From: Pagrus major
Lineage: Eukaryota; Chordata; Actinopteri; Spariformes; Sparidae
Length of the DNA: 64,000 bases
Assembly: GCF_040436345.1 (NCBI RefSeq)
Contig: NC_133223.1
Span: forward strand, 5,023,847 to 5,087,846
Direction of reading: 5' to 3'
The notes beneath the pieces are model-generated. The model ran no database searches. It was not told the DNA's origin and worked only from the letters and a program-made list of their open reading frames with translations. Position numbers and translations under genes: made by a program. Of this stretch, positions 6,682 through 38,800 are shown one piece after another (positions within the stretch are counted from its first letter, which is position 1; each line of letters begins with the position of its first letter).

Positions 6682-11469
<4,788 letters not shown>

Positions 11470-29800: not shown

Positions 29801-32800
29801 AAGAGCCTCTTAAGTTTCTTTTTTATTTGGCTTAGCGATTTCCAACAAATTTAGATACGATTCTCCCTCCAGACGTAGTGGAAAATCACTGCCCAAATAT
29901 TTGACTTACCTCAGGCTCATGTTATCAGATACCTTTGTCCTGAAAGGGAAGTTAAGATCTTAATGTATGATGATTGAATAATAACCGTTGCTGTTATTAA
30001 TCAGTTTGGCTCTGGCATGTCGTATTATCATACTACTTACACATGGGCTAGATTTATAATTTTTTTTTTGCCTAATTTTTTATTTAAATGCCAGTGTAGA
30101 TACTCATATTTTTATACTTTAGTAATGCCATTCCTAGATGTAGCCTCAAAATCTTGCCTTCATTTTTATATGCTAGTATAAGTGATTAGGGGAATCTGGG
30201 CCACAGGGTCTCATATGAATTTTTTCTAGTTTTGTGGTTATGCCCCAAGAAGATGCTTTGTTTTTTGAGTGCCGTAAATCAATGCAACACAGGTGGTATA
30301 CTGTTGTGTGTGAGTTCAAACCCTTTTCCAAAGTGTTACTAATGGTAAAGAGAAATTTTCTAGGCTTCTTTTCTGCCGGTTGAAGTCTGACTGCAGAAGA
30401 CCCTTGGCACTGAAAGTGTACGTATTCTGAAGAGCACAGCCCAGGACCCCTGCATCAGTGATGGCTATGACTTCTTAATCCACTTAAAGAAAACACCACA
30501 ACCTCAGCTCTTCTCTCTATGTATCTGCTTGTTTTTCATTAGAATGCTATGACCGTATGTAAGAGAGACCAATGTATATTTGTATGTAATTAATAGGACT
30601 TTGTTTTGTGAATCAGCTGTTTATAAAAACAGGAATGTAAGTTAATCTGTTGGTAAAGAGAGTCAGACTTAGCTGACTATGTTTGTGCTTGCTGTGTTTG
30701 TAATAACTCAGGTCCCTAGAGTGTATACTGATGAGTGTCCTATGTTCTTGTTGGTGCTCTTTCGCGCAGGGGGCAAAACGCCGGACCCCAAGCTGCAAGT
30801 CAGGTCGTACGTGGACGTCATGTTGGAGCAGAACCTGTCCAAAGAGGAGGTAAGCAGCTACTCAGTGTTTTCTTTGACATGGACTGCAAACCATTTCAGA
30901 CAAAGTTGTCAATGAGTTCTGTGCTTTTTATTTTTTTTCCTTCAATACAGTCATGTAGTTTAACCTGATGTTTGTGCATATCTGTATTTAGAGAGAGATT
31001 CGTCTGCAGCTGGCAGAGAAGGCCAAATCAGGGGACCTGAAAGCTGTCAACGGGTCAGCTGCCTCTCAAGCTGCCACAAAACGTAAGCGTCGCTGGGACC
31101 AGACAGCTGACCAAACCCCTTCTAATGCTACACCCAAAAAGATGTCCAGCTGGGACCAGGCTGACTCGTCTGCTGAGGTGAGCCACTCAAGGTTTAGCCA
31201 GCTAACTTTAAGGTTCAAGTGATTTAAGTGACTTACAGTGGGTACAAATGTTGTGGTCAATTGCCAGTCAGTACTCAATATAATGTAAGTTGGTAATATG
31301 AGGAAATCCAGTCATGTAGGGCAACTATTTTGAAGTTGTAGATTGTCCGACTCGTGGTTAATCTAATTTTCTTTGCCTTTTTCTTTAGCAAACTCCAGGA
31401 CACACTCCTGCACACACACCATCGAACAGCCGATGGGATGAAACCCCTGGCCGCCCTAAAGGGAGTGAGACCCCAGGAGCCACCCCCAGCACCCGCATGT
31501 GGGACCCCACTCCGAGTCACACACCTGCTGGTGCTGCCACTCCTGGCAGAGACACACCTGGCCACGCAACACCCGGCCATGGTGGAGCCACAGGAAGTGT
31601 ACGCAAGAACCGCTGGGACGAAACCCCAAAGACAGAAAGGGAAACCCCGGGGCACGGGAGTGGCTGGGCTGAAACACCTCGGACAGACAGAGGAGATGAA
31701 TCGGTGGGTGAGACTCCAACCCCAGGGGCCAGTAAGAGGAAGTCTCGATGGGACGAAACCCCTGCCAGTCAGATGGGATCCTCCACGCCACTACTTACCC
31801 CAGGAAAGACTCCCATAGGAACACCAGCTATGAACATGGCTACCCCAACACCAGGTACATAAAACTTCACTTTTTGTTGCATTGTATGTTCCTTCTAACA
31901 TCTGTGTTTTGCACCTTTTATTTCTTGTTCATTACTATGTTACTTTTAGTGTCAGGCGTCTTTGTGTTCCATCTTCTCAGTTTGTTTTTAGGGAAAAGGA
32001 ATTGTATTAGCAGAAGCTAATGGATTTCCAAACAACCACATATGAGTCACATGGATCTCCAAGCCCTGTGATGGTTTCACTTTGTTTTTAATTGGTTTCC
32101 TCTTCTTTTTTCTTCAGGTCACCTGATGAGCATGACTCCAGAGCAGCTGCAGGCCTGGAGGTGGGAGAGGGAAATTGATGAGAGGAACCGGCCTCTAACA
32201 GACGAGGAGCTTGATGCCATGTTCCCAGAGGGATACAAGGTTATTGCATTTAATTATCTGGTGACAACCGCAAGAGTAAACGTTATTTTATATTAATCAC
32301 AGTACTGACAGTTAATTTTTCTTCTCCACAGGTCTTGCCTCCACCAGCAGGCTATGTGCCGATCCGTACTCCAGCCCGTAAGCTGTCAGCCACTCCCACC
32401 CCTATTGGAGGCATGACAGGCTTCCACATGCAGGCAGAGGACCGCACAACAAAACAGATGAATGACCAGCCTTCAGGCAACCTCCCCTTTCTCAAACCTG
32501 ATGACATCCAGTATTTTGACAAACTGCTGGTGAGCATTTAATGTTTGCGCACAACATACGTAAAACTGTAAAATCAACAGTTGAATTTTTGTTCTGTCTG
32601 AAATTCAAAATGTGTTGATGATTAGCTCTGTATGTTTGTGTTAGGTGGAGGTGGATGAGTCCACACTGAGTCCTGAGGAGCAGAAAGAAAGGAAGATCAT
32701 GAAGCTGCTACTGAAGATTAAAAATGGAACACCACCAATGAGGAAGGTTGGTTACAGTTATTAACTTACTTTCAATCATCCTAAACTATGTTTTCCACTA

Positions 32801-35800
32801 TCCCTCTTTAAAACATCATTTAAGTCCCAGAATTTCCTGTTCTCCTAGAGCGCCTGTTGCCCCTTTTGTTCTCATGTTACAAATCTACCAAGGAGGCTTG
32901 TAATCACATAAAGCACAAAAAATACTGATTGCAAGATCAACACCCAGCACTGAGCCTGTATGTGGCTACAGTGTGAATATTTGCTTGCTAAAGAATCTTC
33001 TCTCTGAGAAACTGCTGCTTTCAGTAGAGGTCGGAGTGAAACGATCATGATCTGCCGGGAGCAGCAGACACAAGTCATCAGATCTGTTGAGGCTGTCTCA
33101 ATCGATGTGATTTCAACCATTGTCTAACTGACTGATCCTCTTCTCTCTCTTGTCTTAGGCCGCTCTGCGTCAGATTACAGATAAGGCTCGTGAATTTGGA
33201 GCTGGCCCCCTGTTCAACCAGATCCTGCCATTACTCATGTCACCCACCCTGGAAGACCAGGAGCGCCACCTTCTGGTTAAAGTGATTGACCGTATTCTTT
33301 ACAAACTGGATGACCTGGTTCGACCATACGTACACAAGGTAGGCTGAGTGTGAGAGCTGTGCGCTTCTTTAAGTGGATTGTGATTTTAGGAACTAACTTA
33401 CTGTCCTTTCTGTGTCCAGATCCTGGTGGTGATTGAGCCCCTACTGATTGATGAAGACTACTACGCCAGAGTAGAAGGCAGAGAAATCATCTCTAACTTG
33501 GCAAAGGTAATGTGGCAAAAGAAATTTCACACACACGTTGCTTCCTGCGAACCATTCTCGCCTTTTTGACCAGTCCATGGTCAGATCAGGGCTAGCCGTT
33601 CGCTAGATTGAAACCAACATGAGAGCTAGCATACCTGCCATTTATGGCTTGTGTGTTCTCAACCTGCACCCGTTGGTTACAATCAGATATTCCATTGACA
33701 GAATTTTGTTAGATTTGCTTTGATAGATATTCATCATTGCCACCATGGTGACTGGAAAAAAGAGTCGGTCTCAATATTCAATTCGATTCAAACTTTTTAT
33801 TTAAGCCACAAAAGTAATTTTCCCTTGTTTGCAGTGATGTTGGCGTTAAAGAAATTCACACGAACTATGTGAAAACTGCATGCACATGAGATGAAACATG
33901 TAGTTGTTATAAACAGCAGCTGTCCTGTTGGTCCGTTCCCTTTTTATACTGGTGCACCTGAACCAGGTTTAACAGACAGTATAATCTGAATGAAAACAAG
34001 TACACATTCTTTCTTGGGTGTAAGTGTGCCCTGCTGACTGGTGTTGTAAAGGGTTGTCTGTTTTTGATGCATCTTTATTCTGATTTTAGTTGAACTAAGA
34101 AACATGAATTTTTCATTTTAATTGCTACTTCATATGGGCAACATGCTCCCAAACATCATGCCATCACACCAAACAATACCAATGCACATTGAAGTTTATT
34201 TTTAACACATTCCATTCAGAAAGCTGTTTTTTGTGGTTTGTGATGACTGTCTCTGAATGACTGACTGGTCAGTAAGTGTCTTGTTTTGTGGCAATGACTA
34301 ATTTGACATTTGTCTTCTTCCTCTTTGTCCCAGGCTGCTGGTTTGGCTACAATGATCTCAACAATGCGACCTGATATTGACAACATGGACGAGTATGTCA
34401 GAAACACCACAGCCCGTGCTTTTGCCGTGGTGGCCTCTGCTCTTGGTATTCCTTCTCTCCTGCCCTTCCTCAAAGCTGTGTGTAAAAGCAAGAAGTCATG
34501 GCAGGCCCGGCACACAGGCATCAAGATCGTGCAGCAGATTGCCATCCTTATGGGCTGTGCCATTCTGCCTCACCTTCGCAGTTTGGTAGAGATCATTGAA
34601 CACGGTCAGTCATGTCACATGTAAAAGTTTTAACAGGTCCTAGTAGCTTAAATAACATAAACATAAATATGCCACAGTTTATTTGAAATGAATCTTTGAT
34701 AAAGATTCTCAGAGCATTTGCTATTTCTATACAGCTAAGCTATTCAGAACTGTATTGTTTTATTTGTTGTCCTTGTTGTCAGCTATATTTTTACTATTTT
34801 TACTATTTTGTATTTCTAATTTTAAAGTATTCACTCTTGACAATAATTCTTTAATTTTGGGCCTGAAACAAAGTGAAACCTGCACATACAGTTCATATTT
34901 TTTTTGATAAACACTGTCATAATTACTGGACTGAAATGTGTTGAAGCTCTGACTGTTTGACTGTGATGTCACAGGTCTGGTGGATGAGCAGCAGAAGGTG
35001 AGGACCATCAGTGCCCTGGCTATAGCTGCCCTTGCTGAAGCTGCTACACCCTATGGTATTGAATCCTTTGACTCCGTCCTCAAGCCGCTGTGGAAGGGTA
35101 TCAGACAGCACAGAGGAAAGGTAAGATTTCAGTTTTAAAAAAACAAAAAGGTACTTTGCCAAGTTTTTGAGGAAAGAACAAACTATTTGTTGCAAGATCA
35201 ACACCCAGCACTAAGCCTCCATGTGGCTACAGTGTGAATATTTGCTTGCTATAAAGTCTCCTTGGAGGGGCTGCTGCTGTCAGTAGAGGTCAGATTAAAG
35301 ACCAATAATACTCTGCTGGGAGCATCAGACAAACACATTTATTCCTCAGCTCTCTGAACCACAATCTTTGGGCCAAGTTTGCATTCACAATATATTTCTT
35401 GCCTTTTGTCACCAGGGTCTGGCTGCTTTCCTTAAAGCTATTGGTTACCTGATCCCGCTGATGGATGCCGAGTATGCTAACTACTACACCAGAGAGGTGA
35501 TGCTGATCCTCATCAGAGAGTTCCAGTCCCCTGATGAGGAGATGAAAAAGATTGTACTCAAGGTAAGGGATGGGAAGAATAACTTAATATCCTTCAATCT
35601 TAGCTAACTTCCTGCGACTCATTCTCGCCTGTTCAACCACCACATGGTTTCATCAGGGCTAGTAGTTCGCTACATGAACACCAACATGAGAATTAGCAGA
35701 GCTGGCACCCATGTCCTCTCTGTTCTCACCCTGCACCCGTTGGTTACACTTAAAAACAATGCTCTCTGTCTGAACTCTGATATTCGAGGACTGGAGACAA

Positions 35801-38800
35801 TGTTGATGTCGTCTGTCACAATTTTCCATCTCTGACCTGCACTTGTATTTTATCTCATAGGTGGTGAAACAGTGTTGTGGCACTGATGGTGTGGAGGCCA
35901 ACTACATTAAGACTGAGATCCTGCCCCCCTTCTTCAAGCACTTCTGGCAACACAGGATGGCTTTGGACAGGCGCAACTACAGACAGGTAAGCAAACACAC
36001 AGAAGTTCACATTCAGCTTATTAAAGAGACTTCAAGCTTATGCACATATCCCACCTATGTTTTTGAACGGTCTTTTCCTCCAACAGTTGGTGGACACCAC
36101 AGTGGAGTTGGCCAACAAAGTGGGAGCAGCAGAGATCATTTCCCGCATCGTGGATGACCTGAAAGATGAGGCCGAGCAGTACAGAAAGATGGTGATGGAG
36201 ACTATTGAAAAAATTATGGGCAACCTGGGTGCAGCTGACATTGACCACAAGCTGGAGGAGCAGTTGATCGACGGCATCCTGTATGCCTTCCAGGAACAGA
36301 CAACAGAGGTAAAGGGGATCACGCTCATCGGCTTGATTAAGAGCTGTTAAAAAATCTATTGTGTACAGTTTACTATGTCAAGATTTTCCAGGACAGGAAG
36401 AACCCTCTTTACAGAATGTTTTTCTCTTGTTGATTTAATCCCTTCTCCTTTTTCTTCAGGACTCTGTGATGCTGAATGGTTTCGGCACTGTGGTGAATGC
36501 CCTCGGGAAGCGTGTCAAACCCTACCTGCCTCAGATCTGTGGTACAGTGCTGTGGCGTCTGAACAACAAGTCAGCTAAAGTCCGTCAGCAGGCTGCTGAC
36601 CTGATCTCCCGTACAGCTGTGGTTATGAAGACTTGCCAGGAGGTACATTATGAAGACGTGTGCAAACACAGATTCAAAGGCCCAACTGTATATCTTATTT
36701 TAGAAACTAATGCATGTTCTCCTTGTCCATCACTGCAGGAAAAGCTGATGGGTCACTTGGGTGTGGTGCTGTATGAGTACCTGGGAGAGGAATATCCTGA
36801 GGTTCTGGGTAGCATCCTGGGAGCACTCAAAGCCATTGTTAATGTTATTGGTAAGTGTCCTTCACCTTCATCAACAATGATTGCATTTTGAATGATTAAG
36901 GCATTTCCTGGCCAGTCATTCAGATTTCTGGATTTAGAAAAGTAAACATCTGGATAGTTATTGGATAATGTTCTTTTCATTGCAGGTATGCACAAGATGA
37001 CTCCACCAATCAAAGACCTGCTTCCTCGTTTGACTCCCATCCTGAAGAACAGACATGAGAAAGTGCAGGAGAACTGCATTGATCTGGTGGGCAGGATTGC
37101 AGACAGGTCAGTAGAATCAAATTTTAGATTGAAGTTATATTTATCTGATTGTAGTGTCTGTAAGACTTGTGCAGTGAGCAGCACCAGGCCTTATCCTAAC
37201 ACCTTGTTTATTTTAGGGGCGCTGAATATGTGTCGGCCAGGGAATGGATGAGGATTTGTTTTGAACTGCTGGAGCTGCTCAAAGCTCACAAGAAAGCCAT
37301 CCGCAGAGCTACTGTCAACACGTTTGGTTATATCGCCAAAGCCATTGGGTGAGTGCTGCCTTCAGAAACATTGAGGAGGTCTTCATTAATACCAAATGTT
37401 TTTGTATTTATGTTGATTGAATCATCTCTATTCAGGGTATCTGCAGCTCTTATAAGCATTGCATTTTTCTTTCCTTAAAACAAAGGCCTTGCAATGGAAA
37501 AAATTTTTCTTCTTGCTACCTTTAGGCAGTAATGTTAGTCACAAAATGTTTTTGTATCTGACTCCGGGCTGTCAGTAGTCTGAGCATCATTAATGCTGTG
37601 GGTAGCTACAGAAACAAGGACACTTCATCTCCTAATGGACAAGTTAATTTTAGCAAAAACTTCAATGAATAGAGATTTTTAATTGATTAATCCATTGTCC
37701 TCAGGTTGCAGTCATTAAATTAATTATATCATTTGGAATCATTGTTTTATACTGATAGAAAGTACTGGGATAGTGTGATGCAGTTTAGAAAAAGAAACAA
37801 ATCTAGGCCATATTGTCCACATTGGTTTTCCATCACACCCTCATACTTTGTATGACCATGAAAAGGTAATCAGATTGTATTCCATATGCTTTTAAAAGTT
37901 TTAAATATAACTCGGGGAACCCTGCAGAACCCCTGTGATTATTATTTGAAATATTCACCATATGATAAATGAAACCATTGCCTGTTTCTCTGCTAATGTC
38001 ATCTGAACTAATACTTTGCCCGTCTCCCTCCTTCCCTTTAGTCCCCATGATGTGTTGGCCACTCTTCTCAATAACCTGAAAGTCCAGGAGCGTCAGAACA
38101 GAGTCTGCACAACTGTGGCCATTGCCATTGTTGCTGAGACCTGTTCACCATTCACAGTGCTGCCTGCGCTCATGAACGAATACCGCGTGCCTGAGCTCAA
38201 TGTGCAGAACGGCGTACTCAAGTCCCTCTCTTTCCTGTTTGAGTACATTGGAGAGATGGGCAAAGACTACATCTACGCTGTCACACCGCTGCTGGAGGAC
38301 GCACTCATGGACAGGTGAGTTTCTCTGTCTTCTACTGTATACTAATCTTGACAAAGGGATGTTGTAAAAACACAGAATTCCTGAACTTTGCACCTTTTGG
38401 TGATAGCTCACTTAAGTAAACATGGAGCTACTGGTTTATAATTTCCAGTTTATTTATACCAATAACTGTGGAGCCTTGACCCTGTACTTCTGTCATCCTG
38501 CAGAGACTTGGTCCACAGACAGACTGCCAGTGCGGTGGTCCAGCACATGTCTCTGGGCGTCTACGGTTTTGGCTGTGAAGACTCTCTCAACCACTTGCTC
38601 AACTATGTGTGGCCCAATGTCTTTGAGACATCGCCTCATGTAATTCAGGCTGTCATGGGCGCCCTGGAGGGGCTGAGGGTTGCCATCGGGCCCTGCCGCA
38701 TGCTGCAGTACTGTTTACAGGTAAGAACAACCAGGGCCATTCACCTCGATCGACTGTCCGATACTGCTGAATTACTCATTGCTAGTTTATCATGTTATAA

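Follow-up and report, generated by a model that had tools for sequence, protein, structure and literature searches.

Four introns of sf3b1 in the fish Pagrus major very probably carry H/ACA guide RNAs, two of them relatives of SNORA72 and two belonging to an uncatalogued family. We hold with considerable confidence that the introns of sf3b1 host two kinds of H/ACA guide RNA, which we call family A and family B and which both occur as two diverged copies. A preliminary description had proposed that H/ACA snoRNAs were copied from intron to intron within this one host gene, and this remains the best reading of the data. An Rfam match and guide arms for U55 of 5.8S rRNA connect family B with a known family, and family A has the same anatomy. 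The stretch of DNA that we analysed, hereafter the window, is 64,000 nucleotides long and corresponds to C9:5023847-5087846 of a 786-Mb assembly in 25 contigs.

Four elements in alternating order along sf3b1

The four elements are each about 142-145 nt long, with one element per intron, and they follow one another along sf3b1 in the order A-B-A-B (Table 1). All four (4/4) share the strand of the host's coding sequence. In DNA searches of the whole genome, A1 and A2 were 81% identical (E 1.2e-29) and B1 and B2 79% identical (E 1.0e-25). Global alignment within the families gave scores of 199 for A and 184 for B, compared with means of 39 and 38 and maxima of 58 and 59 for 200 shuffles each. The sequence confirms the alternation of two repeat families in sf3b1. 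We also asked whether A and B might be distantly related to one another and rejected this, with scores of 34 for A1-B1 and 29 for A2-B2, both within those of the shuffles.

Table 1. Candidate H/ACA elements in sf3b1 introns, in window positions
Element	Positions	Strand	Intron	Parts
A1 (family A, copy 1)	32929..33073	+	5' of SF3B1 residue 514	5' hairpin; right guide strand from 32975; H box AAAGAA 32990 (15 nt on); small hinge hairpin; 3' hairpin; ACA 33068
B1 (family B, copy 1; SNORA72-like H/ACA RNA)	33543..33684	+	before residue 603	left guide ATTCTCG 33554; right guide GCTAGC 33591; H-box-like AGATTG 33605; ACA 33679
A2 (family A, copy 2)	35190..35334	+	between residues 741 and 742	right guide strand from 35236; H-box-like ATAAAG 35251; ACA 35329
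B2 (family B, copy 2)	35610..35751	+	after residue 790	left guide ATTCTCG 35621; right guide GCTAGT 35658; H box ACATGA 35672; ACA 35746

The repeats lie in introns as first described, but the intron numbers given then (10, 12, 14 and 15) need correction. By the numbering of the human exons, with K666 in exon 14 and K700 in exon 15, the introns would be 11, 13, 15 and 16; these numbers are carried over from human.

Genome-wide DNA searches with A1 and A2 as queries detected family A at two places, and a search with B1 detected family B at two places as well. All of these places are in sf3b1, and at this sensitivity the counts are lower bounds. Within the window, models built from each pair gave no third copy of A or B, the next matches having E 3 and 0.38. 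Many unrelated genomic copies had been named beforehand as the sign of a transposon. The two places detected per family (again as lower bounds), all of them in sf3b1, argue against one.

We compared four exons with SF3B1, leaving out the exon at 33420-33506. They encode successive and different parts of the protein, namely residues 514-573, 603-692, 694-741 and 742-790 of PDB 5ife. Between positions 31000 and 38000, the only direct repeats of at least 25 nt were A, B and one 34-nt pair resembling splice sites. Since the SF3B1 parts differ and the direct repeats are limited to these, the exons are not duplicated in 31000-38000. This agrees with the original view that the coding exons are single-copy and that the gene underwent no segmental duplication. 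A transposon or a segmental duplication is thus disfavoured by the two places per family genome-wide and by the lack of repeated exons in 31000-38000.

Upstream of sf3b1, we observed an exon of the Cpn60/HSP60 type (window 6963-7397, plus strand, with PF00118 on 6996-7349). Since human SF3B1 and HSPD1 also adjoin each other, the local gene order may be old.

Fold, boxes and retained base pairs

Minimum free energy folding predicted the expected two hairpins in all four copies, and the consensus folds of A and B have the same form. The fold z-scores were -3.77 for A1, -2.00 for A2, -5.25 for B1 and -1.44 for B2. The B2 fold is weak and not significantly stable, as 24 of 200 shuffles folded equally well. 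In the consensus fold of A, the hinge contains an extra small hairpin and the 3' pocket is nearly closed.

An ACA triplet is present in 4/4 copies at the point where homology stops. From three bases past the ACA, identity in both families falls to 2-4 of 10, the random level being 2.6 of 10. The ACA of an H/ACA snoRNA usually lies three bases before the 3' end, as had been described for these copies; the ends given here were set three bases past the ACA by convention. At the 5' edge, the A copies agree at 6 of the first ten upstream bases and at 0-2 of 10 over the next thirty. The 5' edge of family B is not sharp, with the introns agreeing at 4-5 of 10 for about 40 nt upstream.

H/ACA guide pockets are located about 14-16 nt upstream of the H box or the ACA. 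The distance from the right strand of the 5' pocket to the H box is 15 nt in A1 and A2 and 14 nt in B1 and B2. The H box motif is given as ANANNA in PMC10234308. The hinge had been said to resemble an H box, and two of the four copies (A1 and B2) carry the exact motif, while A2 and B1 deviate by one mismatch, a G at the sixth place.

We imposed the fold of one copy on the other and compared the outcome with 1000 simulations that scattered the same substitutions. When the B1 fold was imposed on B2, 39 of 48 pairs were kept and 9 broken (31.9 kept in the simulations, p 0.003), and four pairs were kept by changes on both sides (0.9 simulated, p 0.012). In the opposite direction 36 of 40 pairs were kept and 4 broken, a level reached by 0 of 1000 simulations (29.0 on average), again with four two-sided kept changes (p 0.007). 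Consensus folding of B gives 36 pairs, four changed on both sides and none broken, although this procedure favours such two-sided changes by construction. For family A, the A1 fold imposed on A2 gave no significant effect (35 of 44 pairs, 33.9 simulated, p 0.37), and the A2 fold imposed on A1 kept 37 of 41 pairs (p 0.012). In fold stability, both A copies surpass the mutants simulated from their counterpart (p 0.027 in one direction, 0 of 300 in the other), and one of the 34 pairs in the A consensus fold is changed on both sides.

The divergence is unevenly distributed in both families. In family B, 7 of 82 core positions changed compared with 23 of 59 in the variable regions (p 1.9e-5, an optimistic value because the regions were drawn after the alignment had been seen). 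In family A, 3 of 61 positions changed in the 5' hairpin compared with 20 of 79 in the rest (Fisher p 0.0011, optimistic in the same way to a lesser degree), and the 5' pocket strands of A1 and A2 are identical letter for letter. The statement that stems were kept while loops diverged is well supported in B; in A it holds partially, the conservation being in the 5' hairpin.

Family B and U55 of 5.8S rRNA

At the gathering threshold, Rfam gave 0 matches over the whole window. At permissive settings, a search of 4227 families over 3.4 kb matched B1 to RF00139 (SNORA72) along all 132 positions (39.3 bits, E 6.4e-4) and B2 along its whole length (24.9 bits, E 0.78). The Rfam check that had been suggested for the segments gave SNORA72 as the best match of B1, with B2 also fitting at these settings. 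Neither copy reaches the RF00139 gathering score of 43 bits, and for this reason we name both SNORA72-like and do not assign them as SNORA72. B1 is the best RF00139 match of the genome (E 0.035). The second place (C8, 28 bits, E 9.3) was put down to chance, as tblastn found no rpl30 in its 3.1-kb locus and the B model had no match there.

Guide complementarity was read against an assumed 5.8S sequence, taken from outside the Pagrus major genome. The 5' pocket of B1 pairs with this 5.8S over 6+7 nt at exactly U55 without a mismatch, and that of B2 pairs over 6+7 nt with one G-U. The targets searched were assumed sequences of 18S, 28S core, 5.8S, U1, U2, U4, U5 and U6, and an LSU rRNA piece (L011). 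Among these rRNAs and snRNAs, 5.8S U55 was the top-ranked site for both copies in two scoring schemes. In the first scheme, B1 scored 14.9 at U55, beyond all 30 shuffled target sets (maximum 14.2), and B2 scored 13.9, over the 95% point of 13.4 but below the shuffled maximum of 14.3. In the second scheme, with 200 shuffles, the scores were 13.0 and 12.4, the 95% points 10.5 and 10.9 and the maxima 13.4 and 13.2 for B1 and B2, respectively. Both guide arms, in order and 25-50 nt apart with G-U allowed, occur at three places on both strands of the 64 kb, which are B1, B2 and one other (36059/36107).

Two patterns found no intact 5.8S in the assembly. The sole 5.8S-like place found (C3:20134555-20134698, minus strand, L007:1501-1644) is degenerate and lacks the stretch with the U55 site. 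A scan of genome contigs for rRNA gave 5 contigs, from which the LSU piece L011 was used as a target; of six scans of viral contigs one gave a hit, 2 contigs with 18S pieces, which were left out of the target set. Fourteen short LSU rRNA fragments, 74-97% identical to the L011 query, are scattered in the assembly, and 7 of the 14 cluster in a narrow stretch of this query at about 945-1052. The contigs L010 (431-4315, QGON01000020.1), L012 and L014 belong to one MAG, filed under a tubeworm (Escarpia laminata) bacterial endosymbiont, and at one end all three carry a 28S motif conserved in eukaryotes. L010 also encodes a reverse transcriptase domain (PF00078) in an ORF of 1294 aa and looks like a host non-LTR element inserted in rDNA and left in the bacterial bin.

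In chicken, U72 (GGgACA1) targets 5.8S-55 through its 5' pocket with 7+5 nt and has 28S-3342 as a second target (PMC2653536, Table 2). Family B shares with SNORA72 (U72; RF00139) the 5' guide AUUCUCG of the model, the full-length alignment and the ACA tail, and the published target U55 of 5.8S fits it. The full-length model match together with the common guide suggests that the two are homologous. Family B differs in its score below the gathering level, in its host, which is sf3b1 and not RPL30, and in having two copies in one host. Its right guide arm is GCUAGC or GCUAGU, whereas the SNORA72 model has GCUAAA, and the arm of family B matches the assumed 5.8S site over a greater length.

The same chicken source places U72 in intron 3 of RPL30 and a second isoform in an EST intron (PMC2653536). 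We located rpl30 of Pagrus major at C3:5443841-5447764 with the exons for residues 6-102. No SNORA72 was found in this region at E up to 10 or with the model built from B. The simplest reading of these sequences is that the SNORA72 function would be supplied from sf3b1 in this fish.

By analogy with the H/ACA family, we expect the following course of expression, processing, binding and modification. The sf3b1 pre-mRNA would be transcribed and spliced, and the debranched introns would be trimmed to an H/ACA core with dyskerin, NOP10, NHP2 and GAR1. The RNAs would then act in trans. The 5' pocket of B would take up 5.8S rRNA, with GCUAGC pairing with the right arm and CGAGAAU with the left arm, and dyskerin would convert U55 to pseudouridine under the guidance of B, as in the published function of U72/SNORA72.

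The duplicates could also be decaying snoRNA pseudogenes, with one working copy and one relic in each family, but we regard this as unlikely. B2 has a poor fold (z -1.44, with A2 at -2.0), reaches just 24.9 bits against SNORA72 and breaks 9 of the 48 pairs of the B1 fold, yet it retains both U55 guide arms, an exact H box and the ACA. The off-consensus H boxes are found in A2 and B1, and the signs of decay point to differing B copies. Four two-sided compensated pairs are common to B1 and B2, and the letter-identical 5' pocket strands of A1 and A2 also speak against a relic.

Family A and the meaning of the arrangement

Family A has no relative among the Rfam matches: whether the whole 3.4 kb or the single copies were searched, no H/ACA family appeared over A, only weak unrelated matches. 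No canonical target of A scored above chance in the assumed 18S, 28S core, 5.8S, U1, U2 and U4-U6, and the best target score of the 5' pocket was 7.8 with a null median of 9.0. The top site of the A1 3' hairpin (in a 28S piece, 12.4 with a null 95% point of 13.4) was dropped, as it is not common to A2. In both copies, the right strand of the 5' pocket contains a perfect 12-nt complement to AGCAAAUAUUCA of an assumed human 28S sequence, and the same 12 letters also occur in the real eukaryotic LSU contig L011, near 1815. This pairing places no U for pseudouridylation. Shuffling the 22-nt right strand never gave this length (0 of 500), shuffling the whole RNA gave it in 12 of 300 cases, and we treat the pairing as a suggestive lead only. 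Family A is probably a second guide that would work through its unchanged 5' pocket.

Alternatively, A may not be an H/ACA RNA but some other element conserved in the introns, for instance one that regulates splicing or acts by pairing and so controls the dose of sf3b1. This would fit the lack of an Rfam family and of a canonical target above chance, as well as the nearly closed 3' pocket and the extra small hinge hairpin. We find it quite unlikely, however, given the two hairpins, the H box 15 nt past the right pocket strand (a perfect motif in A1, a single deviation in A2), the ACA beside the homology end in both copies and the strand shared with the host and with B. snR30/U17 binds pre-rRNA for folding or processing. 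It is conceivable, and in our opinion improbable, that A represents a fish family of H/ACA RNAs not described before, whose role is non-canonical in this way, perhaps binding pre-rRNA for its folding or processing, while B supplies pseudouridine 55 of 5.8S from the same transcript. That A and B are pieces of some other repeat (a SINE or mobile element) with an H/ACA-like fold by chance is hardly credible: the sequence was indeed copied between introns without the intervening exons, but two places per family were found in 786 Mb (lower bounds), B matches RF00139 and the homology ends right after the ACA tail.

Returning to four H/ACA elements in one host, the most likely origin of the copies is a duplication in cis, within the gene, that took in hardly more than the RNA gene. 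In chicken, copying between introns of one host is reported to have produced almost all snoRNA paralogs, although about 90% of the H/ACA snoRNAs are single-copy (PMC2653536). Changes of snoRNA host have likewise been described as ongoing mobility (PMC3511168), so the process itself is not new. The cis-duplicated chicken paralogs of PMC2653536, for example three copies in introns 6, 7 and 10 of PABPC4, also occupy different introns of one host. In contrast, sf3b1 carries two unrelated families interleaved A-B-A-B, its product is a U2 snRNP protein, and the organism is a fish. Family A resembles the ten orphan GGoACA RNAs of the same source (PMC2653536) in having the anatomy without an rRNA or snRNA target found. 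It differs from them in lacking a detected Rfam relative and in being duplicated.

Neither family has a site above the nulls in the assumed sequences of U1, U2, U4, U5 and U6, and a functional link of A or B to the U2 snRNP has no support, as there is no above-chance site in this U2. Among the matches listed, the titles and abstract openings of open-licence papers announce no snoRNAs in SF3B1 introns, and "sf3b1" has 0 occurrences in the main texts of PMC2653536, PMC3349704, PMC10234308 and PMC3511168.

These results suggest that chicken and this fish carry the guide for one 5.8S modification in different hosts (rpl30 and sf3b1, respectively), and that the SNORA72-like guide escapes annotation at the Rfam threshold. 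Family A adds a duplicated orphan H/ACA candidate. A core splicing factor as the host would tie the supply of guide RNAs to the expression of the splicing machinery.
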